Source: an uncultured Bacteroidales bacterium | GTDB taxonomy: Bacteria; Bacteroidota; Bacteroidia; Bacteroidales; Bacteroidaceae | Direction: 5' to 3' | DNA: 38,532 bases | Assembly: GCA_902798705.1 (NCBI GenBank) | Contig: CADBXS010000003.1 | Span: 1 to 38,532, forward strand | Notes under the pieces: generated by a model | Told to the model about the DNA's origin: nothing | Database searches by the model: none | Seen by the model: only the letters and a program-made list of their open reading frames with translations | Program-made: the position numbers and the translations under genes | Shown here: piece by piece, positions 15,423 to 36,619 of the stretch | How positions within the stretch are numbered: position 1 is the stretch's first letter | Layout: each line of letters begins with the position of its first letter

Positions 15423-17474
15423 ATGAAGATTCTCAACAAGCAAACAGCGTTGGCCATGATGTTGGCTGTGAGCATGGGATTCTCGGCCTGTGTGGATGAC
15501 CCAAGCGGGGAAAATCTTTATACCTCGACAGGAAAAACCATCGCCAACCTCATTGAGTCGGACTCCAACCTTACTTCGTTTCACTATATCCTTGAGCGCG
15601 CCAACTTGGTGCGCTCAATGGATGCATACGGGCAGTTCACCTGCTATGCACCCGAAAACGCAGGCATTGCTTCCTATATCGACTCGCTGTGGAACGACAA
15701 AGAAGCAGCCGTTCCCCATAATGGAATGCAAGAAAACTCGCTCCAGGGGCTGACCGACAGCCTCTGCATCGACATCGCCAAGTATCACCTTGCCAACGGT
15801 GTCTTTCGAACCATCATGCTCGATGCAGGCGGCACGTTCAACACCTTCCTCGGACGCAGTTTCTCCGTCAGTGTGGATACGTTGGGCCGCACTGTGCTCA
15901 ACGGTGTGTCAATACTGACAAGCAAGGACAACGAAGCCACGAATGGCGTGTTGCACAAAATCAGTAAGGTGATGCCACGCACCACCCGACTGTTAGCCGA
16001 AACCCTTCGCCGCCTTCCTAACTACAGCATCTTCAGCGAGGCATTGCAGCGCACAGGCTTATGCGATTCGGTGAAGAAGTCAAACAAGGGTAAAACCTAC
16101 TCCATGATTGACCACACAGACACCGACGGTACGGTACTTTACTACCCTACTGAATGTCGCATCGGCTACACCATTTTTGCCGAATCCAACGAAACTTTTG
16201 CAAACTATGGCATTCATAGTTTCGACGACTTAGTGGCATACGTCAACAAAGTGTATCAGAACGCGGCTTCGTGGTACGACTTGCTCAACGAAAAGGGAAT
16301 TCAAGTGAGCACGGGCAACGACTACACCGAGCGCTTCAATGCCCTCAACATGTTTGTTGCCTACCACATTCTCTATGCCTCCATGCCACAAGACCAACTG
16401 GTGTTTGAGCGCAAGACGGGTGTGGCAGACGTGGTTTCGCGCTACAACTACGTGAACGAAGGTGAACCTTACGACTACTACGAGACGATGCTTCCTCAAA
16501 CACTGATGAAACTATGGAAGCCACGTGGTAGTAATAACGTTTTCATCAACCGCTACCAGACTTTCAACACACTGACCGACGGCATTGGCACACTCGGCAA
16601 CAACCACACGTTGATTGACCGAGGCACTCAGGTGATTCGTGAGGACATCGTTGCCTACAACGGCTATATCCACCCCATCGCCCGTATGCTTTTCTACGAC
16701 AAGAACGTGGCAAATGGCGTACTCAACGAGCGTTTGCGCTTCGATGCCAACGAAATGTTTGTGGAACTCATCAACAACAATATCCGCTACACCTACCCCG
16801 ACGAGTTCTCAGCCATGAACAATGGCGGTAGCGGCGTGCGTATTGCCATCCCTATCGACTATCTCGACAATTTCCATTCCTACAACACCACAACGAACAT
16901 CCGTGTGGGACCGAAGGGTGCTTGGTGGTCGTATCAAGCCGACATCTTCCAGGGATGGAACAACTACGACTTCTGCGTGAAGTTACCACCCGTGCCATCG
17001 GGCGTATATGAATTGCGATTCCCTTACGCCACGGTGCCTTACGGCGGCATGATGCAGTTCTATATCGGAACGAGCACCGACGTGCAGAAGATGGAAGCTC
17101 TCGGCGTTCCGTTCGACATCCGTATTCAGTCCGACGACCCACGCATTGGCTGGACATACTTCTACGAAGAGGAAGACTTGGGCATCGAGTCCGACCGCGC
17201 CATGCGCAACCGCGGCTACATGCGTGGCAGCTATGGTTTCACGGGCCATGCCGGTGAAGGCTATGACCCACTCACTACGGGCAACACACGAGGCAGTCAG
17301 CAGAGTATCCGCCGAATCCTCGGACGTATCCAAATGAAGCAAAGCGAAAACTACTACCTCCGTCTGAAAAACGTAGTAGCCGATGCCATCGACCTCAAAT
17401 GGGGTATCGACTTCTTGGAATTGGTTCCTTCCAGCGTCATCGACAACGACCAATATGCTGAGGACTGGTACTAA
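15423..17474 (+). CDS. Two-FAS1-domain surface lipoprotein (paralogue A)
   Basis: The 683-residue lipoprotein has lipobox FSAC with Cys23, followed by VDDPSGE, the acidic pattern that sends Bacteroidetes lipoproteins to the cell surface. FAS1 domain 1 spans about 35-195: motif H1 QFTCYAPEN at 71-79 and H2 NGVLHKISKV at 174-183. FAS1 domain 2 spans about 200-430: TIFAESNETF at 250-259, AYHILYASM, and YNGYIHPIARML. A C-terminal beta-rich domain of about 250 residues follows (FQGWNNYD ... PPVPSGVYELRF ... DPRIGWTYFYEE) and ends YAEDWY. The lipoprotein at 27334 has the same layout and matches at well over half of positions by eye. FAS1 domains mediate adhesion or ligand binding; the ligand here is unknown. 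It has its own perfect promoter. FAS1 assignment is by motif and fold pattern, not database search. Confidence 0.85.
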   Translation: MKILNKQTALAMMLAVSMGFSACVDDPSGENLYTSTGKTIANLIESDSNLTSFHYILERANLVRSMDAYGQFTCYAPENAGIASYIDSLWNDKEAAVPHNGMQENSLQGLTDSLCIDIAKYHLANGVFRTIMLDAGGTFNTFLGRSFSVSVDTLGRTVLNGVSILTSKDNEATNGVLHKISKVMPRTTRLLAETLRRLPNYSIFSEALQRTGLCDSVKKSNKGKTYSMIDHTDTDGTVLYYPTECRIGYTIFAESNETFANYGIHSFDDLVAYVNKVYQNAASWYDLLNEKGIQVSTGNDYTERFNALNMFVAYHILYASMPQDQLVFERKTGVADVVSRYNYVNEGEPYDYYETMLPQTLMKLWKPRGSNNVFINRYQTFNTLTDGIGTLGNNHTLIDRGTQVIREDIVAYNGYIHPIARMLFYDKNVANGVLNERLRFDANEMFVELINNNIRYTYPDEFSAMNNGGSGVRIAIPIDYLDNFHSYNTTTNIRVGPKGAWWSYQADIFQGWNNYDFCVKLPPVPSGVYELRFPYATVPYGGMMQFYIGTSTDVQKMEALGVPFDIRIQSDDPRIGWTYFYEEEDLGIESDRAMRNRGYMRGSYGFTGHAGEGYDPLTTGNTRGSQQSIRRILGRIQMKQSENYYLRLKNVVADAIDLKWGIDFLELVPSSVIDNDQYAEDWY

Positions 17475-17793
17475 TCAAAGAAATTCTTGTTCTATTATCA
17501 GGGATTTAAAGGATTTTCATGGATTTTCCTTTGCTATGAATTCATTCTAAATTATCCCTGACAAAATTATCAAGGATTTAAAGGATTTGAAGGATTTTTT
17601 CATGTGCTATGAATCCTTTTAATCCCTAAAATCCTTGATAAAAAATAAAGATTCAATGAATTATCAAGTGCTATGAATCCTTTTAATCCTTATAATCCTT
17701 GATAAAAAAAGATTCAATGAATTGTCCCGTGCTTTGAATCCTTTTAAATCCTTAGAATCCCTGTAAAAGAAAACATAATCATTGATAAAGACC
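17475..17793. repeat. AATCC/GGATT tandem and inverted repeat region
   Basis: The gene-free spacer contains four copies of a 62-72-bp unit beginning TGCTATGAAT (17532, 17604, 17668, 17730), each continuing with AATCCTTTTAATCC and ATCCTTGATAAA. Upstream GGATTTAAAGGATTTGAAGG blocks (about 17501-17520 and 17573-17596) are in inverted orientation, so strong hairpins are possible. Short 9-10-bp ATCCTT/AAGGAT units recur inside. There is no coding frame. Confidence 0.8.
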
Positions 17794-18564
17794 ATGATGA
17801 TGAACGAGTTGATAGGAATCGTCAAGCAAGCATCTTCGCTGATGCTCACTGATGGATTCGACATTTTAGAGAAAGATGGCGTCACGAATATCGTGACTTC
17901 CTCCGACGTGGCAGTACAGGAGTTTCTGAAAAGCAAGCTCAACCAACTGCTTCCTGGTTGTGGATTTCTCTGCGAGGAAGAAGACAAGCACCGATTAGGC
18001 AAGGAATACACATGGATTATCGACCCCATCGATGGAACAGCCAACTATAGCCGAGGCATTGACCAATGCGCTATCTGCGTGGGCTTGCAACACAACAAAG
18101 ACATGGAAATGTCGGTGGTGTATTTGCCACGCACCAACGAACTCTTCTCTGCCGAGAAAGGCAAAGGTGCTTTTCTGAATGGCAAACCCATCCATGTGTC
18201 GAAGCGTCCGTTCAGCAACTCTCTTTTCTGCACCGCTCTGGCAGTCTATCACAAGGAAGCAGCACAACTCTGTTCCGACATCATCGTCGATACCTTCATG
18301 CAGTGTAACGACCTGCGTCGCTTCGGAGCTGCAGCACCCGAACTCTGCTACCTCGCTATGGGGCGCTGCGAACTCTACTTCGAATACTGTCTTTCCCCTT
18401 GGGACTATGCAGCCGCTTCCCTCATTCTGATGGAAGCAGGTGGTGTCATCTCCAACCTCCATGCCGACTTTCCTTCCCTCTCCGAACCCTCTGGCATCTT
18501 GGCAGCCAACAATGCCCAGAACTTAGCGAAGCTCCAAAGCATCGTTGACAAGCATTTGAAATAG
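17794..18564 (+). CDS. Inositol monophosphatase family phosphatase
   Basis: A cytoplasmic magnesium-dependent sugar or nucleotide phosphatase. From the first ATG it has 256 residues, typical for the family; a TTG four codons upstream is less likely. Metal ligands are conserved: Glu61 in CEEED, Asp77 and Asp80 in WIIDPIDGTANY, and Asp204 in SPWDYAAASLILMEAGG. The substrate cannot be read from sequence: inositol monophosphate, fructose-1,6-bisphosphate or 3',5'-bisphosphonucleotide (CysQ-like) all use this fold. It sits alone between two repeat-rich spacers and splits fasciclin gene 1 from the main fasciclin/SusCD block, so it may have been inserted there or may be an unrelated neighbour. Confidence 0.9.
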   Translation: MMMNELIGIVKQASSLMLTDGFDILEKDGVTNIVTSSDVAVQEFLKSKLNQLLPGCGFLCEEEDKHRLGKEYTWIIDPIDGTANYSRGIDQCAICVGLQHNKDMEMSVVYLPRTNELFSAEKGKGAFLNGKPIHVSKRPFSNSLFCTALAVYHKEAAQLCSDIIVDTFMQCNDLRRFGAAAPELCYLAMGRCELYFEYCLSPWDYAAASLILMEAGGVISNLHADFPSLSEPSGILAANNAQNLAKLQSIVDKHLK

Positions 18565-19098: not shown

Positions 19099-19129
19099 TT
19101 TGAGTTTCTTAAATTTTTTTATAAATTTG
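19099..19129 (+). promoter_or_regulatory. Promoter of the fasciclin/SusCD operon
   Basis: TTTG (19099-19102), exactly 19 bp, then TAAATTTG (19122-19129), a perfect Bacteroidetes consensus. It shares TAAATTTGC, one base, then GCAAAT with the promoter at 15354. The leader to the ATG at 19169 is about 33 bases. Confidence 0.85.
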
Positions 19130-19168: not shown

Positions 19169-22030
19169 ATGAAAAAATTCTTTCTATTGATTCCCTTGGC
19201 TGGTTTGGCCTTGCTAAACAGCTGTGTGGACAAGTATGAAGAAGTGGATGCCGACTCCAAGCCAAGTTTCTTGGGCGAGAGCATTTATGAGGAATTGTCG
19301 AATCCTGAACGAAATGGCTTACAAGGCACGTTCAACACCTACAAGATGTTGATTAGCGACTTGGGCGAAATGGAAACGCTCAGCCGTACGGGTAGTAAGA
19401 CCATTTTCCCTGCGAACGACGAGGCCTTCGACCGCTTCTTCCAATCCAACATTTGGGGTGTTCAGAGCTACTATCAGCTGAGCAACACTCAGAAGAAACT
19501 GCTGCTGTATTCGTCAATGATTGACAATGCTCTGCTGCTGAGTATGCTTCCAAACGTGTCGAATGGTACGACGGATGTGGTGAAGGGAGATGCTGTGAAG
19601 CACCAGACGAGCATCAGCGTGATTGACTCTGTGACTCACATTGCGGGCAAGGACTTGCCAAAGAACAACTCCTATTGGGACCGCTATCGCGAGAGGAACG
19701 GAGGCATGTATCTGGTAAGCGATGCTACTCGTCCAATGATGGTACACTTCACTCGTGAACACATGCTCACCAACAACATCACCGTGAGCGGCGAACAAAG
19801 TGACTTTGCCATCCTGACGGGAACTCCTTACACGGAAGGCAGTGCTTACATCTTCGACGACCAGGTGATTGCCAGCGACATCACCTGCAAGAACGGTTAT
19901 ATCCACCAAGTGAAGGATGTGCTGGTTCCGCCAGGCAACATGGCCGACGTGCTGGCACGCGGTGCGAATACCAAGATTTTCAACCACATCCTGGACTATT
20001 ACGCTGCACCTTATTATAATGCAACCATAACTAACAACTATAATGCCTGGGCCATTCAGAACGGACACGAGCAGATTGACTCCATCTTCGAGAAGCGTTA
20101 TCTGAGTTCACGTTCTCAGAACGCAACACTGATTGAGGATCCTAACGGCAAGACCTTGTCGAGCTCGGTGGTACTCTCCTACGACCCAGGTTGGAACCAG
20201 TATTATCCTGCCAGCAACTACAACACAGGCAAGGACAACACGATTACCGACATTGGCGCGATGTTCATTCCTGACGACAATGCTGTGAAGAAATACTTCC
20301 TCCCAGGCGGTGCAGGTGCTTACCTCATCGACATCTACGGCAAGAAGGCTAACACAGAGGAGAACCTGATTGAGAACCTCGACTCGCTGCACATCGCTAA
20401 CAAGCAGATACTGACTTCCTTTGTGCGCAACTTGCAGAAGTCATCGTTCTCCGCTACCGTTCCAAGCAAGTTCACCACCATTTCGAACGACGCCAGCGAG
20501 AACATGGGCATGAACATGAGCTACTTGCAGACGAAAACCGATGGCAAATACGACATCCGCTTTGCCAACAACGGTGTGATTTATATCCTGAAAGACATGA
20601 TTGCCCCTGACGAGTATCAGGCAGTTTTGGCACCATCCTCTTCTTATCCCGACATGCGCGTGATGAACTGGGCCGTGCAGGACCGCATCTACTTGGGCAT
20701 CGACTTCCGATTCTACCTCTTGGCCATGAGTGCCAACTATGCTTTCTTCATTCCTGATGACGAGGCATTCGACCAGTACTACATCGACCCAACTACTTTG
20801 GGACACAACCAGCAGGAAGTAATCCGTTTCTGGTACAACTCCGATCCTAACTATAGAGGAGAAAGATTCACAACCCAAACTTACAAGTACAACCCAGAGA
20901 CCGGCGAGGTGGGTGACTTGATTGCCACACTGAGCTTGACGAACCAGAACCATTTGGCTCGCATCAAGTCGGCTCTCTCCGATATTCTGAACTACCACAC
21001 CATCATCCTTGAAGATGGTGACTCGATTGGTATGACCAACAGCTACTATAAGACGAAGCACGGTGGCGAAATCTATGTGGATGGCGGCAAGGTAGGCAAC
21101 AGTGTCTATGGAGCTTCACAACTCTACAATGGCATCACTCCTTCGAAGATTGAAGTGGACTACAAGGAAAAGAACGGACATGCGTACCGAATTGACCACG
21201 TGATTCAGGCTCCACAGGAGAGTGTGTCGAAAGTGTTGCAGAGCAACAACCAGTTCAGCGAGTTCTACCAGCTCTGCGCTGGTTTTGCAGCTGAAAACAT
21301 CTTGAGTTGGATTGGCATTGACGCCACTCAGAACGAGTTTGGAACCACAGAACAAGAACAATACACCATCTTCACCAGCACCTACGGCAGCGGTAAAGCC
21401 AAGATAGAGCAGGCCTGCCTGGACGAGAACGTGAAGATGTTCAACACCTACAACTACACCCTCTATGCTCCAGACAACGAGGCCATGCAGAAAGCATACG
21501 AAGCTGGACTCCCAAGCTGGTCGGACATCGAGGCTGTCTATAACGAGGGCATCACCGAGAGCGACGAAGCCAAAGTGGAAGCCATGAAGAGCGAACTTTG
21601 GACGAAGGTGAAAGCTATGCGTGACTTCGCCCGCTATCATTTCCAGAGCATCAGTATCTATGCCGACAACAAGGTGGAAAGCGGTACCTATCAGAGCTTG
21701 TCGTATGACAAAGTGGGTGTTTCGCTCGACTTGAATGTATCGGGTGGCAACAAGAAACTGGTGGTGAAGGACTTGGCAGGCGTGGAACACACCGTGGATG
21801 CCAACGACGCTACGAAGCTGACAAACTACATGACACGCGACTATTGGTTCAACTCAGACAGAAGAAGTGCGACAGCAATCACCACCTCTTCGTTTTGTGC
21901 TATACACGAGATTACTGAGCCTCTCTACAACAGCAAAAACAAGCGATTTGACGCAGAATGGGCAACGAAAGCTGCAAGAGTGAATGCTCAAAAGGAATAT
22001 GTGCGACGCAAAGCAATCAATCAATTGTAG
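19169..22030 (+). CDS. Large multi-FAS1 surface lipoprotein
   Basis: From the ATG at 19169 the protein has 953 residues and starts MKKFFLLIPLAGLALLNSC. Cys19 is the lipid anchor and VDKYEEVDADS follows as an acidic surface-export signal. Upstream start codons add an unlikely isoleucine-rich leader that overlaps the promoter. Four FAS1-like repeats can be traced by H1/H2 motifs: TIFPANDEAF (78-87) with NGYIHQVKDVLVPP (242-255); AMFIPDDNAV (364-373) with NGVIYILKDMIAP (468-480); AFFIPDDEAF (525-534) with NGHAYRIDHVIQAP (669-682); TLYAPDNEAM (764-773) with a degenerate end. It is the first gene of the operon, before SusC, so probably an accessory surface protein of that transporter. The ligand is unknown. 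No enzymatic motif was seen. Confidence 0.85.
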   Translation: MKKFFLLIPLAGLALLNSCVDKYEEVDADSKPSFLGESIYEELSNPERNGLQGTFNTYKMLISDLGEMETLSRTGSKTIFPANDEAFDRFFQSNIWGVQSYYQLSNTQKKLLLYSSMIDNALLLSMLPNVSNGTTDVVKGDAVKHQTSISVIDSVTHIAGKDLPKNNSYWDRYRERNGGMYLVSDATRPMMVHFTREHMLTNNITVSGEQSDFAILTGTPYTEGSAYIFDDQVIASDITCKNGYIHQVKDVLVPPGNMADVLARGANTKIFNHILDYYAAPYYNATITNNYNAWAIQNGHEQIDSIFEKRYLSSRSQNATLIEDPNGKTLSSSVVLSYDPGWNQYYPASNYNTGKDNTITDIGAMFIPDDNAVKKYFLPGGAGAYLIDIYGKKANTEENLIENLDSLHIANKQILTSFVRNLQKSSFSATVPSKFTTISNDASENMGMNMSYLQTKTDGKYDIRFANNGVIYILKDMIAPDEYQAVLAPSSSYPDMRVMNWAVQDRIYLGIDFRFYLLAMSANYAFFIPDDEAFDQYYIDPTTLGHNQQEVIRFWYNSDPNYRGERFTTQTYKYNPETGEVGDLIATLSLTNQNHLARIKSALSDILNYHTIILEDGDSIGMTNSYYKTKHGGEIYVDGGKVGNSVYGASQLYNGITPSKIEVDYKEKNGHAYRIDHVIQAPQESVSKVLQSNNQFSEFYQLCAGFAAENILSWIGIDATQNEFGTTEQEQYTIFTSTYGSGKAKIEQACLDENVKMFNTYNYTLYAPDNEAMQKAYEAGLPSWSDIEAVYNEGITESDEAKVEAMKSELWTKVKAMRDFARYHFQSISIYADNKVESGTYQSLSYDKVGVSLDLNVSGGNKKLVVKDLAGVEHTVDANDATKLTNYMTRDYWFNSDRRSATAITTSSFCAIHEITEPLYNSKNKRFDAEWATKAARVNAQKEYVRRKAINQL

Positions 22031-22044: not shown

Positions 22045-22159
22045 AAGCCCCCTCCCAGCCTCCCCGAGGGGAGGGGGAAAAAAGAATGATAATTAGGACG
22101 AAAACTAAACAGCCTTCCGGATGGCTTCTCTCCCCCTCGGGGGAGCTGGAAGGGGGCTT
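22045..22159. repeat. Two GC-rich elements in inverted orientation before SusC
   Basis: Bases 22045-22074 and the reverse complement of 22130-22159 agree at 25 of 30 positions (both start AAGCCCCCT and contain CCCCGAGGGG). They bracket about 55 bp and could fold into a long hairpin in the mRNA between the fasciclin and SusC genes, ending 18 bp before the SusC ATG. Each arm also folds on itself. Confidence 0.75.
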
Positions 22160-22177
22160 GAAACTATAAGAAATCGT

Positions 22178-25100
22178 ATGAAAAAGATATTAGCTATATT
22201 ACTGCTCCTCTGCACGATGGTGCAGATGGCAATGGCACAGACCAATGACCGCATCTCGGGTACGGTTGAGGACGACTTCGGCCCTGTGATGATGGCAAAT
22301 GTGGTGGAGCGTGATGCCAACAATCGTGTTGTCAATGCTACCGCAACAGACGCCAATGGTAACTTCTCTATGCCAATCAAAAGCGGAAAGAACAAACTCG
22401 TCGTTTCCTTCGTGGGAAACAAGACACAAGTGCTCGACATCGGCAGCAAGCGCACTTTCAAAATCATCATGAGCAGCGATGCCGTTGCCATCCAGGAAGT
22501 GGTTGTGAAAGCCACTCGCACGCAGTCGGGCGGACTGAGCATCCCAGTGAAGGAAATCTCCGTGGCACAGCAGACGATGAACATGGAAGACGTGGAAGGT
22601 CTGGCATTCACGAGTGCCGACGAAGCCCTGCAGGGTGAGATTGCAGGTCTCGATATCGTTGCCAACTCAGGTAACCTCGGTGCCGGTACTCAGATGCGTC
22701 TGCGTGGTGTGACCACCATCACGGGCGATGCCAACCCTCTGATTGTTGTGAACGACAAAATCTTCGACAACCCTGACGAAAACTTCGACTTCCAGAATGC
22801 AGGCGAAGAGGAATATGCTTCGCTGCTCTCTGTGAACACACAGGATATCCAGAGCATCACCGTACTGAAGGACGCTGCCGCAACCGCTGTTTGGGGTGCG
22901 AATGGTGCCAACGGTGTAATTCTGATTACAACCAAGCGCGGTGTTCGTGGTAAGACACACGTCACGTTCGATTATAAGTTTACAGGTACATGGCAGCCAA
23001 AGGGCTACGACCTGCTAAACGGTGACGACTATACGATGATGATGAAGGAGGAATTCTACAATCCTGCTCAGGCATCGAACGCAACGACTAACATTGCCGA
23101 ACTGAACTACGACAAGAGTTGGGCAGAATATGAGAACTGGAACAACAATACGGACTGGGTGGATGCCGTGACTCAGTTTGGTCAGCAGCACAGCTACAAC
23201 CTCAACCTCACGGGTGGTGGTGAGCGTGCCACCTTCCGCATCAGTGGAGGTTATGACCATCAGACAGGTACCATCATCAAGCAAACCCTCGACCGTTTCA
23301 CCACTCGCCTTGCCCTCGACTACAACGTGAGTGACCGCATCCGCTTCTCGACCGACTTCGCCCTCACCTACACGAACAACAATCGTAACTGGGATGGCTC
23401 CGGAAAGAACACACTCCTTGGAAAGGCTCTGAACATGGCACCAAACATGTCGATTTATCGTCAGGATGCCAACGGAAACGATACGGATGAATTCTACATC
23501 ATGAATCCAAGCGGCGACCCTTACGCAGGCAACTTCTCCTCCACTCGCCTCAGTGCTATCCGTACACTCGGCAACCCTGTGGCTATTGCCCACAACGCTT
23601 GGCAGAAGGAAACGACCTATCGTCTGACTCCAGACTTCACGCTCAAGTATGAACTCCTGGGCACAGACGACCACTCTCACCGCTTGAACTTAGAACAGCG
23701 TATCGACTTCGATATCTACTCTAACAGCTCTCCATCTTGGTATCCAGCATCGTTGTCAACCAATGCTTGGACCAGCGGAATATATAACCAGAGCATCAGT
23801 TCGGAAAGCAACCGCTTCCGCATTGGTAGCCGAACCCGCCTGAACTACACTCCTCACTTCAACAACGAGGACATCTCCCTGACTATGATGGCTCAGTATG
23901 AGTTCCACAAGTCGAAGAGTAGCGCTCAGAGCAACACCATGCAGCAGTTGCCTGGTGGCATCACTTCCACCGTGGCTGACGGATATCTCAGCGCAATGAG
24001 CAGTAGCAACAGCCGTTCTGCAGACCAGAACTTGCTCTACAACATGCACGCTTCCTACAAGGACGGACGCTATAGCGTGGGCTTCTCAATGCGTGCCGAT
24101 GGTAACTCCAAGTTCGGTCCTGCTCACAAGTGGGCTTACTTCCCAGGCGTTTCGCTCCGCTACAACATCAGCGACGAACCATTCATGCGTCCATTGATGG
24201 ACAAGGTGAAGGTTTCCATTCTCGGTTTGCGTGCCAGCTACGGTATCAACGGACGCGCTCCTTCAGCCGACTACCTCTACTTCAACACCTACTCCACTTC
24301 AGCTGGTTACTACGGTGTGGGAAGCACCGCTGCCAACACAGCAGCACTCGATGCCCTGAAGTTGGATGACCTGCGCTGGGAAAAGACTAGCAGTGTGAAC
24401 CTCGGTTTCAACCTCGGATTCCTCGACAACAAGCTGAGCTTCGACTTCGACTATTATTATAAGGACACGAAAGACCTGCTGATGCAGAGCGTAGGTATTC
24501 CTCGCACCACAGGTTTCGGCTCCATGAGCTGGGCAAATGTAGGCGAGATGACAAACCAAGGTTGGGAATTGAACTTCAATGCCAGAGACATCATCAAGAA
24601 GGGTAAGTTCACGTTTGGCATGAGCTTCAACATCGCTCAGAACAAGAACCTCATCAAGGAAATGGACCCAACCGTTTTGGCTTCCATCAACACAGAGTGG
24701 TCGGCAACGACTCGCGGTGCATTGCTCAATCGCGTTCAGCTCAACAACCCTCTCGGTTCGATGTACGGATTCCGCTACAAGGGAGTCTATCAGTATTCTT
24801 ACGACTACTTGGAGAACTACAGGAAGGAGCACAACCTGAATGCAGTTCAGTACGAGGCTTGGATTTATGAGCAGTTGGCTGCAGGCAAGACCTTCCCAGT
24901 GGTGATTGGTTCCGATGGAAAGGTGCTGATGACCAATCAGGGCACTCCTCAGCACTTGGTTTACAACTACGCTGACGGAAGTTCCACTTACACGTTCCAA
25001 GGCGGTGATGCCATCTATGAGGACATCAACAACGACGGACAAATCAATGCCCTCGACATTGTTTATCTCGGCAACTCTCTGCCTAAGGTGAACGGTGGTT

Positions 25101-25583: not shown

Positions 25584-27314
25584 ATGAAAAAGATACTTTC
25601 ATTCATCATATTAACAGCAGGTCTGATGCTCAGTTCCTGTGTAGATACTGAATTGCTGCCTTACAACAAGACGGTTGACGAGGATTTCTGGCAGACCAAA
25701 GGAGATGTATCGTCAATGGTGAACGGTGCTTACAAGAGTATGCTTTCCGCCGACGTGATTTCCCGTCTGATTGTTTGGGGTGATTTTCGTTCCGACGAGT
25801 TGGTGCTCGTAAACTCCATCAGCAACTCCACAACAGAGGCTCTGAATGAAATCTATGCTGCCAACTTGCAGATAACTAACACATACGCCAACTGGGCATC
25901 GCTCTATTCCGTCATCAACATCTGCAACATCGTGTTGGAAAAGTCGCAAGCTGTCATCAACATCGACCCTTCCTACACCGAAGGTGACTGGAAATCCGAT
26001 TGCGCTCAGATGAAGGCGCTTCGTTCTCTTTGCTACTTCTACTTGGTGCGCAACTTCCGCGACGTACCTTATTCCTCGAAGGCATACATGAACAGCAGTC
26101 AGGACTTGCGCTTGGCTCAATCATCGCCCGACTCCGTGCTCACTTGCTGCATCAACGACTTGAAGGAGGCAGAAGCCGACATCATCTCGGCAGAGGCCTA
26201 TAGCGATTGGCGCCGCGTGGGTTGGTTCAACAAGGACGGTGTGGATGCACTGCTTGCCGACATCTATTTGTGGCGTGCTTCCATCATGGACAGTTCCAGC
26301 GACTATGAACAAGCCGTTTTCTACAGCAACAAGGTGATTGAATCCAAGAAGGCTCAGCACCAGACAAGGCGCCTGCAGATTGAGGAACAGGAATATCCTC
26401 TCGTTGCAGGAAACGAAGCCTACTCCAGCCTGTTCATCAATCAGAATGCGGAGGAAAGCATCCTCGAACTGCAATTCGACGGTTCGAACAACAGCAACAC
26501 CGCACTTTGCCAATACTATTATAAATATGCTGGTAACTATTCCACCTACGGCTATCTTCGTGCAGCATCCATCTTTGGAATGCGCGGAAATAACATGGTG
26601 TATGAGAAGAACGGTGACTACCGCTTCGTAGAGAATGTCTATAAAGCAGGTAAATCAGACGAATCATACGACATTCGCAAGCTTGTCACTCAGACTACCT
26701 GGTCAACAGGCAATCCAGGAGCTGCCACTGGCAGAGAACGCAACAACGAAGACCGTGCATTTGCCAACTTCCGCCAGAACTACATTGTGTATCGTCTGAC
26801 CGACGTGATGCTGATGAAAGCCGAAGCAATGGTTCAACTCGCCGTGGATGAGAACGACACATTGCTGCGTCAGGCATTCAACATCGTGAAAGCTGTGAAC
26901 GACCGCTCCATCTATGAGGGAAGTCTTTCGAACGACTCTCTGAAATGGGGTAACTACAACACACTCGACCGCATGGAGAACCTCGTGCTGAACGAGCGTC
27001 TGCGCGAACTCTGCTTCGAGGGCAAGCGCTGGTACGACCTCATGCGTTATGGCTATCGCAAGATGGAAAACGTGGACTACACCACCACCCTTGCACGCCA
27101 GCAAGAACAGGGTAAGACTCTGCCAAACGTGAGCAGGGACATGATGAGCCTGATGACTCGCAAATACACATCAGGAGGAACTTCCGTGAGTGCAAAGATG
27201 CGCACAGAGCCTTACCTCTATATGCCAATCATCGAAAACGAAATCAAAGCGAACGACCTGCTGAAGCAGAATCCAGCTTACTCGTCGAGCGACCAGTGGG
27301 AAAAGAACTATTAA
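25584..27314 (+). CDS. SusD/RagB-type surface lipoprotein 1
   Basis: The glycan-binding lid of the preceding SusC barrel. It has 576 residues and lipobox LSSC with Cys19. Family features are seen in order: YNKTVDEDFWQTKGDVSSMVNGAY at the N-terminus, tetratricopeptide-like helices (MKALRSLCYFYLVRNFRDVPY, about 145-165), the YIVYRLTDVMLMKAEAM segment, and the C-terminal ERLRELCFEGKRWYDLMRYG motif. It is coupled to SusC by a 13-bp gap with a purine-rich AAGGA site, and a FAS1 lipoprotein gene follows after only 19 bp. The substrate is not evident. Confidence 0.95.
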   Translation: MKKILSFIILTAGLMLSSCVDTELLPYNKTVDEDFWQTKGDVSSMVNGAYKSMLSADVISRLIVWGDFRSDELVLVNSISNSTTEALNEIYAANLQITNTYANWASLYSVINICNIVLEKSQAVINIDPSYTEGDWKSDCAQMKALRSLCYFYLVRNFRDVPYSSKAYMNSSQDLRLAQSSPDSVLTCCINDLKEAEADIISAEAYSDWRRVGWFNKDGVDALLADIYLWRASIMDSSSDYEQAVFYSNKVIESKKAQHQTRRLQIEEQEYPLVAGNEAYSSLFINQNAEESILELQFDGSNNSNTALCQYYYKYAGNYSTYGYLRAASIFGMRGNNMVYEKNGDYRFVENVYKAGKSDESYDIRKLVTQTTWSTGNPGAATGRERNNEDRAFANFRQNYIVYRLTDVMLMKAEAMVQLAVDENDTLLRQAFNIVKAVNDRSIYEGSLSNDSLKWGNYNTLDRMENLVLNERLRELCFEGKRWYDLMRYGYRKMENVDYTTTLARQQEQGKTLPNVSRDMMSLMTRKYTSGGTSVSAKMRTEPYLYMPIIENEIKANDLLKQNPAYSSSDQWEKNY

Positions 27315-29488: not shown

Positions 29489-31174
29489 ATGAAACTACAT
29501 AAATATATAGGAATTATGATGGGGGCAGCAGCCATGCTGACTGCCACCTCATGCTCCGACTGGAATGATTACAATGAGGTGAAGCCAGATGCCGTGAATG
29601 CTTCTGCCGACCTCTCGCTCTGGGAAAACATTTCGCAGAACCCCGAACTCAGCGACTTTGCCAAGATCATCCAGAAAGTCGGATTCGATGATGAACTCAA
29701 GGCAGCTCACTACTATACGGTGTGGGCTCCGCTCAATGGCACTTACGATGTGCAGGCTCTCTTGAAAGAAAATGACAAGGATGTGCTCTACCAGTTTGTG
29801 AAGAACCACATTGCTGAATACAACCATCCTGCATCGGGCATCTTCTCCGAGCGCATTCGCACACTCAACCTGAAGAGTCACATCTTCGCAGGTGAAGCCA
29901 ATGCCTACACCTATTCGGGCGTAAAGGTGGAGAAAGCAAACTTGCCAAGCGTGAACGGCACGATGCACATTCTTGCTGCTGATGCTCCGTTCCTCCCTAA
30001 CGTGTATGAATACATTCAGGAGCGATTTGGTGAGGACTCTATCGCCAAATATTTCCGCAACTACGAATACACCTACCTCGATGAAGAGCGTTCGGTGGTG
30101 GGACCAATCGTTGACGGTCGTCAGACCTACATCGACTCCGTGATGGTGACAGAGAACACACTGCTCAACTACCTCAACGCTGGTTTGGATGAGGAAGACA
30201 GTACCTACACATTCCTCTACCCTTCGAACGATGCATGGGTGAAGCGCTACAATGCTTCAAAGTCTTACTACAAGTACATCAGCACTCTGAAGGCACAGGA
30301 TTTGGCCAACTCCACGTCGAACAGCGACATTCAGACCTTGCAGGTTAGCTCTTTCGACACAGAGTACATGACCGACTCCCTTGTGAAGCGCAGCATGGTT
30401 CGCAACCTTGCGTTCAGCAACAACGACACCTACAATGCCATTCTCAGCAAGACGAGCTTCACAGCCGAGGACTCCATCCGTTCCACAGCTTATGCAAAGT
30501 TCTCGAATCCTGCAGAGATTCTGAAGGCAAGTTCAGAGACCATCGAAATGAGCAACGGAACCGTTCGTATTTTGGATTCCATCGCTTTCCATCCATGGGA
30601 GACCTTCGCACCTGCCATCACCGCTTCTTCCATTGTCAATCGTGCTCGTATCCTCACAGGAACGGCTCACGAAATGCGTGTGGATGACCCCGACTCTACA
30701 AAGGCCGACTTCACAAAAATGCGCGAATCGCTCCGCTACACATGGGTAGAGCCAACCAGCACCTACTCGAAGCCAGAGCTCGACATCTTCCTGCCAAATG
30801 TGCTCTCCACCACCTACAACATCTCTCTTGTGATGGTGCCAGCCAACATTTCCCTGGCAGACTCACTTCGCGAGAACAAGCCTAATCAAATCAACGTGAC
30901 ACTCAACTATTGCAGTGCCAACGGAAGTCTCGTTGATAAGGATTTCGGCACATTCAGCAACGATGTGACTAAGATTGACACCCTCTTCATTGGCCAGCAC
31001 ACTTTCCCTGTTTGCTATAACGGCCTCAGAAATTTTTATCCAAACATCAAGATAACGTCTCCTTTCAGTGTCTTCAACAAAACCATGATGGACACCTACA
31101 CTCGCGACCTTCGCATTGCAGCTGTCCTACTGAAGCCAATCGAAATGGAAGAATATGAAAAAGGAGGAAACTGA
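29489..31174 (+). CDS. Two-FAS1-domain surface lipoprotein (third type)
   Basis: The 561 residues carry lipobox ATSC with Cys22 followed by SDWNDYNE. FAS1 domain 1 is about 40-172: H1 YYTVWAPLN (75-83), H2 NGTMHILAADAPFLP (156-170). FAS1 domain 2 is about 200-370: H1 YTFLYPSNDAW, H2 NGTVRILDSIAFHP. The last 190 residues form another beta-rich region (YNISLVMVPANISL) that is unlike the C-terminal domain of the 683/688 pair. It sits 88 bp after the previous gene and 2 bp before the second SusC, so it is translationally close to that transporter. In order it corresponds to the large FAS1 protein ahead of the first SusC. FAS1 assignment is by motif. Confidence 0.83.
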   Translation: MKLHKYIGIMMGAAAMLTATSCSDWNDYNEVKPDAVNASADLSLWENISQNPELSDFAKIIQKVGFDDELKAAHYYTVWAPLNGTYDVQALLKENDKDVLYQFVKNHIAEYNHPASGIFSERIRTLNLKSHIFAGEANAYTYSGVKVEKANLPSVNGTMHILAADAPFLPNVYEYIQERFGEDSIAKYFRNYEYTYLDEERSVVGPIVDGRQTYIDSVMVTENTLLNYLNAGLDEEDSTYTFLYPSNDAWVKRYNASKSYYKYISTLKAQDLANSTSNSDIQTLQVSSFDTEYMTDSLVKRSMVRNLAFSNNDTYNAILSKTSFTAEDSIRSTAYAKFSNPAEILKASSETIEMSNGTVRILDSIAFHPWETFAPAITASSIVNRARILTGTAHEMRVDDPDSTKADFTKMRESLRYTWVEPTSTYSKPELDIFLPNVLSTTYNISLVMVPANISLADSLRENKPNQINVTLNYCSANGSLVDKDFGTFSNDVTKIDTLFIGQHTFPVCYNGLRNFYPNIKITSPFSVFNKTMMDTYTRDLRIAAVLLKPIEMEEYEKGGN

Positions 31175-31176
31175 TT

Positions 31177-34100
31177 ATGAGAAGCAACAATAACACACTC
31201 CGCAAGCAGAGCCTCCGATTCATGCTCTGTGCTTTTGCACTCACGCTCTCTGCCCCACTCCTCGCTCAGGATGAGACAGAAGCCGTTGAAACCCAAGCAG
31301 TGCAGCGTCCGAAGCGCGAAAAGCAAGTGGCTAAATATCCAATGATGGAAATCAGCGGAAAAGTCTTCGACATGGGTACTGGTGCTCCACTCGCTGGTGT
31401 TCAGCTTCAGGTGCTGAACAATGCCCAATACGCAGCCATGTCCGACGAAGAAGGTAACTTCACCATCAAGGTACCTACCTTCACCACCGCCCTCTACGCT
31501 TTCTCGCCAGGTTATGCCAACCAGCAAGTTGCCATCAGCAACGACGACAGTGCTCAGAAAGTTGTCATCAAGATGTTGAGCGACAAGTTCAACACCATGT
31601 ACGAGAACACCACCATCTATACAGCAACAAAGAAGGTGAACACCAGCAACTCCAACAACGTGGCGATTGATGCCGACATCGAGAACAGTCTCGGTGGCGA
31701 TGTCCACACCATCCAGCGTTCGGGTGTTGCCGACGGAGGTGCTGCCATGTTCATTCGTGGTTTGAACTCACTCAATGCCAACGCACAGCCGCTCATCCTC
31801 ATCGATGGCATCGAGCAGGATATGCAGTTGGACCGTCCAGCACTCCACGACGGACAGTTCGTGAATATGCTCTCCAATGTCTCCACCAACGACATCGAAA
31901 GCGTGCAGGTACTCAAGAACGCCACTGCTCTCTATGGTGCTCGTGGTGCCAACGGTGTCATTCTCATCACCACCAAGCGTGGACACTCACAGGCCACTCG
32001 CATCGATGCCAACATCTATGCAGGTGTGACACTCAAGCCATCGCTCCCAACCACCATGAATGCCTATCAGTATCGCAACTATGCCACTGAGCTGCTCGGA
32101 ACGATGAAAGAGATTCAGGAGCGAAAGAATCCTATCGAGTTCAACTTCCTCAACGACGATCCTTCCAACTATTACTACTACACCTACCACAACGATGTGA
32201 ACTGGAAGGACTACGTCTATCGTGATGCCATCACACAGAACTACAGCGTGAATGTGCAAGGTGGTGACGACGTAGGTATGTATAACCTCTCCATTGGCTA
32301 CATGGATGCAAAATCTACTGCCAAGAAGAATGGTTTCGACCGCATGAACGTGCGTTTCAACACCGACATCGACATCTTCAAGAATTTCACGACGAAGTTC
32401 GACATTTCCATTTCCCGCACCAACAACGAAGTGTTCGACGATGGAGCACGTGCCGACCTCACCAGCGGAACCATCACATCGCCAACCTTCCTGGCACTCA
32501 TCAAGGCTCCTATCGTCAGCCCTTACCAGTACAGTGCCATCCAGGGAAAATACACCACCTTGCTGAGTGGCTATGATGAGATTTACAGCCAGTTGGGCAA
32601 CGGCTATTCACTTGCCAACCCTGTTGCCATCCTTGAAAATGCCAATGGCGACAACAAGAACAAGGCTGAGAACACCATCTTCAACGTTCGTCTTGCTCCA
32701 ACTTATCAGATTAGCAAGAGTCTGAAGATAACCGAAGACCTCAGCTATAGCTACAACCGCAACAACCAGCGCTACTATCGTCCATACGTGGGAGTTCCTT
32801 CCTTCGAAATCAGCGACCTCGGCACCGTCACTTCCATGGTGATGTCGCTCTTCTCCAAGGAAAACATCTTCGTCACCAACACCCGCTTGGATTGGAATCA
32901 CAACTATGGCAAGCACACCCTTGCTGCCTTTGGCGGATTCCGTTTCCAGTCGTTCTCCTACGACTCTCCAAGCCTCTCCACCGAATACACCTCTGAAACC
33001 AACGACAAGAACCCTACCCTCTCGGCTTCTTCTGGCTATCAGAACGTGAGTGGTGCCAACGACACATGGAAAAACATGCAGTGGTACGGCAACTTCGATT
33101 ACAACTACATGAACAAGTACTTCGCCACCGTTTCCCTCTTGGCCGAAGCCAACAGCCGTTTCGGTAAGAAGAAGGGCTTGAGCCTCTTTGGCACACAGTG
33201 GGCCATCTTCCCAAGCGTTCAGGCTGCATGGGTACTCACCAACGAGAAGTGGTTCCCTAAGACCAAGGGCGTCAACTACCTCCGCATCAACGCAGGATTC
33301 GATATGAGCGGCAACGACAACATTTCCAACTATGCTGCTCGCACCAGCCTCTCCGCCGTGAAGTACAACAACCAGGCAACAGGTTTGCAACTCACCAACA
33401 TCGGTAACGACGAAATCAAGTGGGAAACCACCACGAAGTTCAACGTAGGTGTTCAAGGCTATTTCGTCAACAACCGCATTGGAGCCGGCGTCGATTTCTA
33501 CATCCACAACACCAAGGACCTCCTCTCGCTCAAGTCGTTCGACAACCCAATCGGTGGTATCAACAACTACTGGAGCAATGGTGGTAGCCTTCGCAACGTG
33601 GGTGCCGAAGCCAACCTCTCCGTGAAGCCAGTGGTCAGCAAGAGCTGGACAGTGGAAGTGGGTGCAACCCTCGGCCATTACAAGAACAAGGTAACGAAGT
33701 TGCCTGACGGCGATTTCACTTCGTCCATCTATGGCGACAAGAACATCCTCACGTCCGTAGGCAATCCTGTTGGCGTATTCTTCGGCTATCAGACGGCAGG
33801 CATCTTCTCCACCGATGCCGAAGCAAGCACAGCTGCCAACGGCAACTATCTCCGCATGGTGGATGCCACAGGTGCTTCCTACAACTTCGAGGCGGGTGAT
33901 GTTCACTTCATCGACCAGAACGGCGACGGCATCATCTCAGAGGCCGACAAGGTCATCATCGGCGACCCTAACCCCGACATCTACGGAAACATCTTCGCCA
34001 ACGTCTCCTTCAAGCGCTTCACGCTCAACATTGGCTTCAACTACAGCCTCGGCAACGATGTTTACAATTATCAGCGCTCCATCCTCAATGCTGGAAGCAA

Positions 34101-34467
34101 CTTCTTCAACCAGCAAGTGGCAGAGGTCAACCGCTGGCGCTACGAAGGTCAGCAAGCCGAACTTCCACGCGTGAACTTTGGCGACCCTCTTGGCAACAAC
34201 CGTTTCAGCGACCGCTGGATCGAGGATGGTTCCTACCTCCGTCTCAAGACCGTGAAACTCAACTACAATGTTCCTGTTCCTGGTTCGTGGTCTTGGCTCC
34301 AAGGTCTTAACATTTGGGCAGAGGCTCGCAACCTCCTCACCTTTACCCACTATCTTGGAGGCGACCCAGAGTTCTCCATTGGCAACGGTGTGCTCTATCA
34401 GGGCATCGATGCAGGAAACATCGCACAAGGTCGCTCGTTCCTCGTAGGTGTGAAAATCAACCTGTAA
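31177..34467 (+). CDS. SusC/RagA-type TonB-dependent outer-membrane transporter 2
   Basis: The 1096-residue outer-membrane receptor starts 2 bp after the FAS1 gene, with an AGGAGG site (31162-31167) lying inside that gene's end. The signal peptide ends SAPLLAQ (about 1-31). A charged linker (32-56) follows, then a carboxypeptidase-like domain (ISGKVFDMGTGAPLAGV, about 57-135) and plug (MFIRGLNSLNANAQPLILIDG, VQVLKNATALYGARGANGV). The barrel ends GVKINL. It differs strongly from SusC 1, so it is not a recent tandem copy. Unusually its SusD lies 262 bp away rather than directly adjacent, with a palindromic repeat in between. Confidence 0.95.
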   Translation: MRSNNNTLRKQSLRFMLCAFALTLSAPLLAQDETEAVETQAVQRPKREKQVAKYPMMEISGKVFDMGTGAPLAGVQLQVLNNAQYAAMSDEEGNFTIKVPTFTTALYAFSPGYANQQVAISNDDSAQKVVIKMLSDKFNTMYENTTIYTATKKVNTSNSNNVAIDADIENSLGGDVHTIQRSGVADGGAAMFIRGLNSLNANAQPLILIDGIEQDMQLDRPALHDGQFVNMLSNVSTNDIESVQVLKNATALYGARGANGVILITTKRGHSQATRIDANIYAGVTLKPSLPTTMNAYQYRNYATELLGTMKEIQERKNPIEFNFLNDDPSNYYYYTYHNDVNWKDYVYRDAITQNYSVNVQGGDDVGMYNLSIGYMDAKSTAKKNGFDRMNVRFNTDIDIFKNFTTKFDISISRTNNEVFDDGARADLTSGTITSPTFLALIKAPIVSPYQYSAIQGKYTTLLSGYDEIYSQLGNGYSLANPVAILENANGDNKNKAENTIFNVRLAPTYQISKSLKITEDLSYSYNRNNQRYYRPYVGVPSFEISDLGTVTSMVMSLFSKENIFVTNTRLDWNHNYGKHTLAAFGGFRFQSFSYDSPSLSTEYTSETNDKNPTLSASSGYQNVSGANDTWKNMQWYGNFDYNYMNKYFATVSLLAEANSRFGKKKGLSLFGTQWAIFPSVQAAWVLTNEKWFPKTKGVNYLRINAGFDMSGNDNISNYAARTSLSAVKYNNQATGLQLTNIGNDEIKWETTTKFNVGVQGYFVNNRIGAGVDFYIHNTKDLLSLKSFDNPIGGINNYWSNGGSLRNVGAEANLSVKPVVSKSWTVEVGATLGHYKNKVTKLPDGDFTSSIYGDKNILTSVGNPVGVFFGYQTAGIFSTDAEASTAANGNYLRMVDATGASYNFEAGDVHFIDQNGDGIISEADKVIIGDPNPDIYGNIFANVSFKRFTLNIGFNYSLGNDVYNYQRSILNAGSNFFNQQVAEVNRWRYEGQQAELPRVNFGDPLGNNRFSDRWIEDGSYLRLKTVKLNYNVPVPGSWSWLQGLNIWAEARNLLTFTHYLGGDPEFSIGNGVLYQGIDAGNIAQGRSFLVGVKINL

Positions 34468-34505
34468 TTAAAGTAAAAAGTAAAAAAACTTGGAAACGAT
34501 TATAT

Positions 34506-34664: not shown

Positions 34665-34682
34665 GATAATAATCCCAACGTG

Positions 34683-34722
34683 ATTTTTAATTTTTAACTT
34701 TTAACTTTTAATTTTTAATTTA
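34683..34722 (+). repeat. TTTTTAA/CTTTTAA tandem run
   Basis: Six to seven T/A-rich heptamers of the type TTTTAAC or TTTTAAT lie directly upstream of the SusD 2 start. They may affect translation or promoter geometry. Confidence 0.6.
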
Positions 34723-34729
34723 TTTCTAT

Positions 34730-36619
34730 ATGAAGTACAATATAATACATAAGATGAGAAGCGTAGTGATGATGCTGCTTACACTTTTCACTCTTCACTT
34801 TTCACTTTTCACTCTTTCGTCCTGTTCCGACATGATTGATACGGACTCCACCATGCAGGCCTTCGACTACGAGCTCAACGAAAAGACCGACTCCATCTTC
34901 TTCGCTTACGGCATCCTGCAAGCCATGCAGCAGCTTGCCGACCAGCAAGTGTTCTTGGGCGAAATGCGCGGTGAACTCGTTGCCACCACTGAATATACCC
35001 TCAATTCGTTGCGCCAGTTGCACGACTTCTCCGCAACCACCACCAACGAATACGACAGCGCATACGTTTACTACCGCGTCATCAACAACTGCAACTACTA
35101 CATTGCCCATCGCGACACCACCCTCATCACGGGAAGCACCCGAGTGGTGATGAACGAATACGCAGCAGTCAAGGCCATCCGTGCCTGGGCTTATTTGCAG
35201 TTGGCTCGCAACTATGGCACAGTGCCATTCTTCACCGAACCACTGACCACCATCTCGCAAATCAACAACAGCAACTACCCTCAGTACGACATCAACGGCA
35301 TCGTCAACGCACTTGCTCCCGACCTCGAGCAGTACAGCGGTCGCCCAGTGCCAAGCTATGGCACGAGCGTCAACATCGGTACCACCAACTTCGGACAGGC
35401 CAAGAGCATGTCAACACCGCTCTGCTTCATCCCTGTCGATGTCATCTTGGGCGACCTCTATCTCGAAGTCGGCAACTATGCCAAGGCAGCCACCTACTTC
35501 ACCAACTACATTTGCAAGTTCGACCAGAAGGCATATAGCATAGGTGCTGCCGTCAACCAGACATTCTGGACTCAGCACGACAACCTCATTCAGCCTTCCG
35601 ACTGGGGCGGTTCGCAGGCATACAACAACACCTTCGGAAGCATCTTTGTCAACAATGCCGTGCTCGACATCATTTCCTACATTCCGATGTCCGTCAACCG
35701 CACTCGTGGAACCACCACCAAGGTGCCTGAGTCTTTTGGCTACAACTACTACTCACTCTCCAATTCCGCCGATGAGCTTTGGAACGAGCAAATGCAGCTC
35801 ATTCCTTCGAAGGCATACACCAGCATGGCGCAGAACAGCAAATACTACTACTATCAGCAAGTGACAGGAGCACCAGCTCAGCAGTATGTCAATTTTGCCA
35901 TGATGGGAGATATGCGTGCCGAAAACGGCCAGTCGCTCCGCGTCACCAACGAAATTGAGAACAACGAGACAGAAACCCACACATGGGTACGCAAGTACAT
36001 GAGCGGCAACATCATCCTCTATCGTGGCACCACCGTCTGGCTCCACCTCGCCGAAGCACTCAACCGCCTCGGCTATCCCGATGCAGCCTTCATGATACTC
36101 AAGGAGGGCATCAACGAGCGCTCCATGGACTCCACCGCTGTCTATGTGTCCAATGCCACGCGCAAGCTCCTCACCGAGACCTACCCAATCATGGGCGAAA
36201 AATATGCATCGCAGTTCACGACTGCATACAATTACGGCATTCACTCTCACGGAGCAGGAGTCACTTCCGATGGCAACTACCCAGGACGTTCACCTTATCA
36301 GTTAGGCATCGTCGTAGGCGAGAAGATGCAAAGGCTCGCACAGACCAACGAACAGCTTCAGCAACGTCTCGTGGCAGGAACGACCACCAAGGAAGACACC
36401 ATCAACGCCATGGAGGACATCCTTTGCGATGAGTACGCCATGGAGTTTGCCTTCGAGGGAACACGTTTCTACGACCTCATGCGTCTCGCGCGTCACAAGA
36501 ACAGAGCAGGACTCTATGGTGGCAACTACGGCAGCACTTGGTTGGCAGACAAGCTGAAGGCGAACAACCCTCGAAAGGATCTCACCAATCCTGAAAACTG
36601 GTACATGCCTTTCAAGTAA
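34730..36619 (+). CDS. SusD/RagB-type surface lipoprotein 2
   Basis: The 629 residues carry lipobox LSSC with Cys32 and SDMIDTDS after it. An internal ATG nine codons in (34754) would give a shorter, more typical signal peptide. Features: EKTDSIFFAYGILQAMQQLADQ near the N-terminus, the TPR-like AVKAIRAWAYLQLARNYGTVPF, and C-terminal DEYAMEFAFEGTRFYDLMRLAR, a canonical SusD motif. It is the lid of SusC 2. The signal peptide core LFTLHFSLFTLS is encoded by a CACTTTTC tandem repeat (34780-34815) resembling intergenic repeats elsewhere. It is the last gene of the operon and a clear terminator follows. Confidence 0.93.
   Translation: MKYNIIHKMRSVVMMLLTLFTLHFSLFTLSSCSDMIDTDSTMQAFDYELNEKTDSIFFAYGILQAMQQLADQQVFLGEMRGELVATTEYTLNSLRQLHDFSATTTNEYDSAYVYYRVINNCNYYIAHRDTTLITGSTRVVMNEYAAVKAIRAWAYLQLARNYGTVPFFTEPLTTISQINNSNYPQYDINGIVNALAPDLEQYSGRPVPSYGTSVNIGTTNFGQAKSMSTPLCFIPVDVILGDLYLEVGNYAKAATYFTNYICKFDQKAYSIGAAVNQTFWTQHDNLIQPSDWGGSQAYNNTFGSIFVNNAVLDIISYIPMSVNRTRGTTTKVPESFGYNYYSLSNSADELWNEQMQLIPSKAYTSMAQNSKYYYYQQVTGAPAQQYVNFAMMGDMRAENGQSLRVTNEIENNETETHTWVRKYMSGNIILYRGTTVWLHLAEALNRLGYPDAAFMILKEGINERSMDSTAVYVSNATRKLLTETYPIMGEKYASQFTTAYNYGIHSHGAGVTSDGNYPGRSPYQLGIVVGEKMQRLAQTNEQLQQRLVAGTTTKEDTINAMEDILCDEYAMEFAFEGTRFYDLMRLARHKNRAGLYGGNYGSTWLADKLKANNPRKDLTNPENWYMPFK

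Follow-up and report, generated by a model that had tools for sequence, protein, structure and literature searches.

A conserved cassette of three fasciclin-domain lipoproteins and two SusC/SusD pairs, a candidate two-pump importer of Bacteroidota

SusC/SusD systems are the main route by which Bacteroidota take up complex glycans, and their accessory lipoproteins are thought to vary freely between loci. A stretch of 38,532 nucleotides from an uncultured Bacteroidales bacterium (assembly GCA_902798705.1, contig CADBXS010000003.1, positions 1 to 38,532; this whole stretch is called the window below) holds lipoproteins with the fasciclin domain FAS1 interleaved with two SusC/SusD pairs, and raises the question of whether the FAS1 proteins are working parts of a Sus-type importer. 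An initial annotation, made from the sequence by itself, had proposed that they are. Gene calls here combined an open reading frame (ORF) listing and its translations with Pfam and NCBIfam scans of 16 window proteins. All four proposed FAS1 lipoproteins (683, 953, 688 and 561 aa, starting at 15423, 19169, 27334 and 29489) matched PF02469 above the Pfam cut-off with E-values from 4e-17 to 3e-12, and both SusC/SusD pairs exceeded the cut-offs of 368 bits for TIGR04056 and 23 bits for PF07980. All of these genes lie on the + strand, and a lipobox-like cysteine is present in all six window lipoproteins (four FAS1, two SusD).

Seven of the genes form an uninterrupted run at 19169-36619, which we call the cassette: FAS1-L (953 aa, 19169..22030, PF02469 E 4e-17), SusC1 (1149 aa, 22121..25570, 690 bits, with an internal start at 22178 equally likely), SusD1 (576 aa, 25584..27314, PF07980 E 1e-21, 78 bits), FAS1-M (688 aa, 27334..29400, E 3e-16), FAS1-S (561 aa, 29489..31174, E 3e-12), SusC2 (1096 aa, 31177..34467, 596 bits) and SusD2 (629 aa, 34730..36619, E 1e-12, 48 bits), abbreviated L, C1, D1, M, S, C2 and D2. 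One FAS1 lipoprotein thus stands ahead of each SusC, FAS1-L before SusC1 and FAS1-S before SusC2. The intergenic gaps are 90, 13, 19, 88, 2 and 262 bp in this order; the initial annotation gave the 2, 13, 19 and 88 bp gaps correctly but left out the 90 bp between FAS1-L and SusC1 and the 262 bp between SusC2 and SusD2.

The remaining FAS1 lipoprotein, FAS1-M1 (683 aa, 15423..17474, +, E 5e-17), is a paralogue of FAS1-M (62-63% identity) that stands alone and is followed by an inositol-monophosphatase-like gene (17782..18564, +, PF00459 E 6.5e-55) that separates it from the cassette. For Bacteroidetes-type promoters we took the consensus to be TTTG-N19-TAnnTTTG. A predicted site at 19099..19129 (+) lies 39 bp before FAS1-L, in agreement with the consensus promoter that had been placed ahead of the 953-residue gene, and a second, previously unreported one at 15354..15384 (+) lies 38 bp before FAS1-M1. 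The motif has 3 matches in the window against 0.80 expected, at least 3 being reached in 5 of 100 shuffles, and the third match has a different spacing and lies inside a leucine-rich repeat gene. Scans of the window for sigma-70 and terminator sites gave sites no commoner than in shuffles; the terminator claimed after the second SusD was not recovered by the scan, and only an AT-rich hairpin was seen there by eye. Because FAS1-M1 has its own predicted promoter and is cut off by the inositol-monophosphatase-like gene, we place it outside the cassette run. A single operon with all four FAS1 genes was rejected on the same two grounds, so that treating the four as one set is not supported, and the genes probably fall into two or more transcription units, one with FAS1-M1, near the GDSL esterase and glycoside hydrolase (GH) family 2 genes described below, and one with the cassette.

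Is this gene order peculiar to the contig? We annotated 141 stretches (the window, 60 further stretches and 80 loci) using profiles built from cassette proteins. The 80 loci were the best 80 of 372 relatives, picked by similarity to M, which favours M-bearing loci, and the first 61 stretches supplied the sequences for the profiles by which they were then annotated themselves; stretches L052 and L101 are apparently the same contig, and other overlaps between the sets were kept in the 141. With the sample so defined, the complete seven-gene run occurs in one order and orientation in 83 of the 141. Another 16 follow this order up to the point where a contig or stretch end interrupts them, 2 lack M, 1 reads M-M-S-C2-D2, 38 carry M-type hits without a cassette (L099 and L100 of this group being ordinary short FAS1 proteins), and 1 has an L-like protein alone (L087). 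The six junctions have median gaps of 9-30 bp among the annotated stretches. By record title, the 80 loci come mostly from uncultured Prevotella, Prevotellaceae, Bacteroidaceae or Bacteroidales, with one Alistipes metagenome-assembled genome (MAG), and many are from rumen or other herbivore-gut samples.

Within the window's genus all 13 genomes scanned, the window's own among them, have a PF02469 match, as do 4 of 12 others of the family and 4 of 16 of the order, two of these last four being the ordinary short FAS1 proteins L099 and L100 without SusC/SusD. A sample of 201 genomes from the window's family, with at most 4 candidates scored per genome, contained FAS1-L in 128 at E<=1e-40, spread over 16 of 30 genera. 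Among 296 genomes of the phylum, the profile of a diverged, short FAS1-L matched 6 besides the window's own. These 6 genomes come from two other families of the class (f19 and f21) and have 7 loci between them; at every locus the seven genes recur in unchanged order, with SusD2 extending past the end of the stretch in three. The order is therefore not unique to this contig: it recurs in tens of genomes and the seven-gene synteny spans at least four families (f1, f8, f19 and f21). The conserved cassette itself is established, and the proposed integration of FAS1 lipoproteins in a Sus-type system stands. That two unlike SusC/SusD pairs and three FAS1 lipoproteins are fixed in order in at least four families goes against the expectation of freely varying accessories.

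The seven proteins have also diverged together. In a tree of 59 SusCs, 24 C1 and 24 C2 sequences each form one clade with support 1.0; the two lines together are separated from 11 other SusCs of the window's genome with support 0.93, and their subtrees look alike. Pairwise distances of the seven cassette proteins correlate at r 0.91-0.97 across 65 complete single-copy cassettes, while permuting M against C1 gave r of at most 0.11 in 200 tries. The correlated distances indicate that the set is inherited together. Of the 22 SusC matches over the cut-off in the window's genome, 10 belong to such cassettes. In one near relative of the window cassette (L052 / L101), two ORFs take the place of L and another two that of S, perhaps through assembly frameshifts.

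What kind of proteins occupy the accessory places? A lipobox-like motif is found in 87 of 91 L, 144 of 149 M and 95 of 96 S relatives, so nearly all of these proteins should be anchored lipoproteins. The AlphaFold2 model of FAS1-M, built from 74 sequences, has a mean pLDDT of 90.3, and its top Foldseek matches are TGFBIp and periostin (E 9e-16). Below the FAS1 proteins follow jelly rolls of the carbohydrate-binding module (CBM) type, namely 7ehg MiXBM (E 6.5e-5, TMt 0.64) and CBM6 2cdp (E 2e-3, TMt 0.47), for which the listing gives no matched residue range. We assign these matches to the C-terminus because residues 477-674 are mostly strands in the model and belong to no Pfam family; this part is strongly conserved among M proteins, and the Pfam scan of the window proteins found no CBM family in FAS1-M. 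The protein is thus probably built, as judged from the model, of two FAS1 domains and a CBM-like C-terminal beta-sandwich. The FAS1-L model (pLDDT 89.7) matches TGFBIp-type proteins with four FAS1 domains at E 2e-21 over 919 columns, but with an rmsd of 15 and a TM of 0.26, so it aligns as a flexible chain. Profile comparison gave clear FAS1 scores for segments 1 and 4 (97.6 and 96.4) and weak ones for segments 2 and 3 (76.5 and 29.8), and the model is probably to be taken as a chain of four FAS1-like domains. For FAS1-S, hhalign recovered one clear and one probable FAS1 domain (98.5 and 86.9%) followed by a C-terminal region without a domain assignment; comparing the C-termini of FAS1-S and FAS1-M by hhalign gave 10%, no useful match, and searching the solved structures with individual L or S sequences returned nothing informative. 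No SusE or SusF family was found in the lipoproteins by the Pfam scan, which found FAS1 instead, and position and lipobox both fit a SusE/F-type surface lipoprotein.

With moderate confidence, we read the cassette as a two-pump Sus-type importer in which the FAS1 lipoproteins form the surface capture and handover layer. The seven proteins would act together as a single uptake machine of the outer membrane. Its two SusC/SusD pumps would be non-redundant, and its three FAS1 surface lipoproteins would stand where other Sus systems have surface glycan-binding proteins of the SusE/F type. FAS1-M would grip the polysaccharide, probably via its C-terminal beta-sandwich; FAS1-S, encoded next to SusC2, and FAS1-L, encoded next to SusC1, might tether the chain, hand it on, or connect the two pumps; and the SusD lids would load oligosaccharides into SusC for TonB-driven import. 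At the window, the substrate would be trimmed by the GDSL esterase and the GH2 enzyme encoded just upstream with the second FAS1-M. We prefer glycan capture to a simple tether because two FAS1 genes follow SusD1, the place in which SusE/F-type surface glycan-binding proteins sit, because FAS1-M matches CBM-type folds besides FAS1, and because three of the seven distant loci sit in rhamnogalacturonan or rhamnose gene clusters. Conservation of the order in distant relatives points to an old, little-noticed machine for the uptake of plant cell-wall sugars. If so, the FAS1 fold would gain a role in bacterial nutrient import, and the cassette would give structural studies a naturally occurring complex with two pumps.

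The substrate was approached through neighbouring enzymes. Upstream of FAS1-M1, on the same strand, lie a GDSL esterase gene (10664..11947, +, PF13472; listed start TTG, with an ATG slightly downstream) and a gene for a beta-galactosidase-like GH2 enzyme (12435..15344, +) with Glyco_hydro2_C5 and DUF4982 domains and NCBIfam matches below the cut-off; the FAS1-M1 start is 78 bp downstream of the latter. The esterase is perhaps a pectin or rhamnogalacturonan acetylesterase by sequence, with a weak match to the pectin acetylesterase family NF041897 far below its cut-off, and it probably belongs with the GH2 enzyme and FAS1-M1. The GDSL-GH2-M arrangement recurs in a Prevotellaceae MAG (L114) with 87, 94 and 94% identity, respectively. 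Among the distant loci, for which flank genes were chosen by eye and the f21 loci G237 and G418 were outside the scan, three of the seven lie among rhamnogalacturonan or rhamnose genes. At G249, RhaT and a RhaD-type aldolase/dehydrogenase both score over cut-off, and a GH2, an FGGY kinase and an L-rhamnose-isomerase relative lie there too; the flank of G467:C13 holds GH88, GH95, GH106, polysaccharide lyase (PL) family 22, GH2 and a GDSL esterase; and that of G223 holds GH106, PL22, GH2, GH115, a GDSL esterase and a rhamnogalacturonate-lyase protein. The window GH2 is 50% and 52% identical to the GH2s of G249 and G223, and the window esterase 47% and 41% identical to those of G467 and G223, loci that all come from another bacterial family. 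These shared enzymes suggest a pectic substrate of rhamnogalacturonan type, which is the most likely assignment for the window cassette from sequence comparison. The chosen flank genes of window-type cassettes included 3 GH28 and 2 with rhamnogalacturonan-lyase domains, of 42.

Enzymes around other copies are mixed, so the substrate would differ between copies and comprise more than one plant polysaccharide. The neighbour tallies describe chosen genes, with housekeeping-looking ones left out and with members shared between sets, and are not a fair sample: the Pfam neighbour sets held 39 of 46 downstream genes and 25 stand-alone-M neighbours, nearly all from 78 listed, and the later sets held 33 of 51 and 12 of 28 genes plus 10 and 30 earlier neighbours. 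A split of substrate by FAS1-L length (about 850 aa for xylan, 920-1040 aa for pectin) was rejected, both groups showing GH115 and GH43.

Several observations weigh against the two-pump capture reading, among them that the CBM-type matches come without a residue range. The pectin call for the window copy rests on two enzymes. GH115 occurred among chosen neighbours in 5 of 42 and 2 of 43, and GH67, GH43 and one GH10 were present too, GH95 being found in the window's family as well; the distant G366 locus has a GDSL+SASA esterase as one neighbour, one neighbour at G467:C9 had no Pfam match at 1e-5, the G031 cassette has a GH9/cellulase protein beside it, and several flanks look by eye like housekeeping genes. 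The fold matches of FAS1-M also include Cry toxins, xanthan lyase and gingipain adhesin domains, and FAS1 domains bind proteins as well as, in 8c18 from the same match list, carotenoids. FAS1-M is not indispensable in cis, being absent from 12 cassettes. FAS1 proteins beside SusD are moreover not wholly unseen in print (PMC4891872). The gene set itself comes apart in places: stretch L155 lacks L-C1-D1 and has only the other half, M-M-S-C2-D2, preceded by a 1611-aa ORF, and the L-like protein of L087 is on its own. Relatives of L, M and S stand side by side without SusC/SusD in L181 and L182, as do relatives of L and M in L270.

Within the cassette, M is the part that varies. When 20 L-bearing genomes were searched for M, 11 had it in the expected place beside L, as judged by coordinates, and 9 did not; all 9 have complete L-C1-D1-S-C2-D2 cassettes. 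Together with G022, G023 and G024 (the last cut within SusC2), they make up the 12 genomes with M-less cassettes, which occur in genera g11, g12, g13 and g36. In ten of these genomes M lies at other places, with 1 to 19 matches, and G087 and G067 have none anywhere at E<=1e-60, indicating that the six-gene machine can do without M. One of the 12, G086, has 19 FAS1-M matches and one FAS1-L match in one genome, its M-less cassette being L275. M is doubled or tripled in three full cassettes (L123, L125 and L154) and split in one (L044). A search of 19 genomes selected because they lack the system gave no M (11 of them FAS1-L-negative, 8 only PF02469-negative), and among genomes searched with both profiles only G007, which is 56% complete, has a strong M and no L. 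An M tree of 144 proteins (99 from cassettes, 45 lone; 146 rows with 2 identical ones dropped) needed 14 changes between the two labels, against a mean of 38 and a minimum of 32 after shuffling. Lone M lines are therefore fairly lasting.

This distribution fits an M that could serve the importer in trans. It is conceivable, though we put it forward only tentatively, that FAS1-M is an interchangeable trans-acting adaptor, such that an L-C1-D1-S-C2-D2 machine would work with several to about twenty stand-alone M proteins, each for another glycan. Substrate range would then grow by copying one lipoprotein gene and not a whole polysaccharide utilization locus (PUL), which would be a new way for it to evolve.

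Among other explanations for the cassette, the one that survives best holds that the FAS1 chains are structural, mainly binding proteins and bridging both SusC/SusD pumps and surface enzymes, with glycan binding minor. The near-invariant order and strong co-divergence fit a physical complex of this kind, the best fold matches, TGFBIp and periostin, are protein-binding, and the L, M and S relatives found together without SusC/SusD may associate alone. These three stretches hint that L, M and S proteins associate with one another; by eye, their FAS1 relatives carry type-I-looking signal peptides instead of lipoboxes. The CBM-type fold matches of M, however, suggest direct glycan contact, and M is dispensable in cis; we regard this account as rather unlikely. 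Adhesion is a weaker candidate still: the FAS1 lipoproteins would tether the cell to plant fibre or matrix while SusC/SusD imports whatever is released. An order locked to SusC and SusD across the class is not needed for adhesion alone, and the two SusC/SusD lines would be left unexplained, which makes it improbable even though FAS1 is known from the adhesion proteins that are the best fold matches, many members come from rumen or herbivore-gut MAGs by record title, and a highly transcribed FAS1 protein of a SusC/SusD-bearing symbiont has been interpreted as adhesion in a passage of PMC10199937. Import of a non-glycan cargo such as a peptide, glycoprotein or small ligand would have precedent in the peptide importers RagAB and BT2261-2264 and in the carotenoid held by the FAS1 protein 8c18, but the glycoside hydrolases, lyases and rhamnose pathway that recur around cassettes make it very improbable. 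Chance placement of FAS1 genes beside ordinary PULs, for which the stand-alone M genes beside unrelated genes could be cited, is refuted by the seven-gene synteny over at least four families and the congruent divergence.

How does the proposed importer compare with known systems? It resembles Sus-like PULs in its adjacent SusC/SusD pairs, in the further lipoproteins directly after SusD1 and in nearby carbohydrate-active enzymes (GH2 and GDSL at the window, and others among the chosen neighbours of relatives). It differs in that FAS1 proteins hold the places of the surface glycan-binding proteins, with no SusE/F Pfam match in the cassette, and in having one lipoprotein before each SusC and two unlike SusC/SusD pairs in one operon. 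Since the defining SusC/SusD features are present and FAS1 proteins replace SusE/F, we treat it as a variant of the Sus-type system. Tandem-susCD PULs, of which the Prevotella xylan locus Xus is an example, share two SusC/SusD pairs and a plant cell-wall substrate. They differ in that no FAS1 proteins are named in PMC12959208, which deals with tandem susC/susD PULs and has 0 occurrences of the word fasciclin. TGFBIp, periostin and fasciclin I likewise string FAS1 domains together (Foldseek E-values 2e-21 with L and 9e-16 with M), whereas the cassette proteins are bacterial lipoproteins in a transporter operon and M adds a C-terminal beta-sandwich. No SusC/SusD partner was named among the FAS1 matches found in the PDB by sequence. 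The 'utilisomes' (BT2261-2264) have extra surface lipoproteins thought to sit on SusC/SusD, but these are not known as FAS1 proteins.

The rhamnogalacturonan-II PUL BT1024-1030 of B. thetaiotaomicron has two SusC/D-type pairs and a pectic substrate. The cassette was set apart from it by published gene names, BT1026 being listed as a DUF4957 protein and not FAS1 in PMC10434189. One precedent is a figure: the legend of Fig. 6 in PMC4891872 names a FAS1 domain protein in a cellulose/hemicellulose-like, SusD-bearing PUL of Gramella portivictoriae and other Flavobacteriaceae, with GH5, GH9 and GH26, recalling the GH9/cellulase near the G031 cassette. The FAS1 protein is not discussed in the text of that paper, and the likeness is to the legend and not to a gene order, but it may be the same kind of locus. 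The statement in the initial annotation that no characterised Sus-type system is built around FAS1 thus held for the literature searched, with this drawn Gramella protein as a qualification; no account of the cassette was found in the open-access literature, most subscription journals and preprints being outside the search.

No dedicated regulator (HTCS, SusR or sigma/anti-sigma) was found among the 16 window proteins scanned, and two-component regulator domains are present among the neighbours of some relatives' cassettes. Further upstream, two overlapping ORFs at 1814-7385 (-) encode large secreted-type proteins of 531 and 1364 aa and may represent one gene split by a frameshift; the 1364-aa protein has Fn3_assoc and CHB_HEX_C_1 domains. 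The 927-aa secreted-type protein at 7632-10415 (-) has no Pfam match at 0.1, and its C-terminal tail looks by eye like that of the 1364-aa protein. The cassette is followed at 37245-38243 (+) by the gene of a BspA-type leucine-rich repeat protein, and one LRR_5 protein also occurs among the neighbours of other cassettes.

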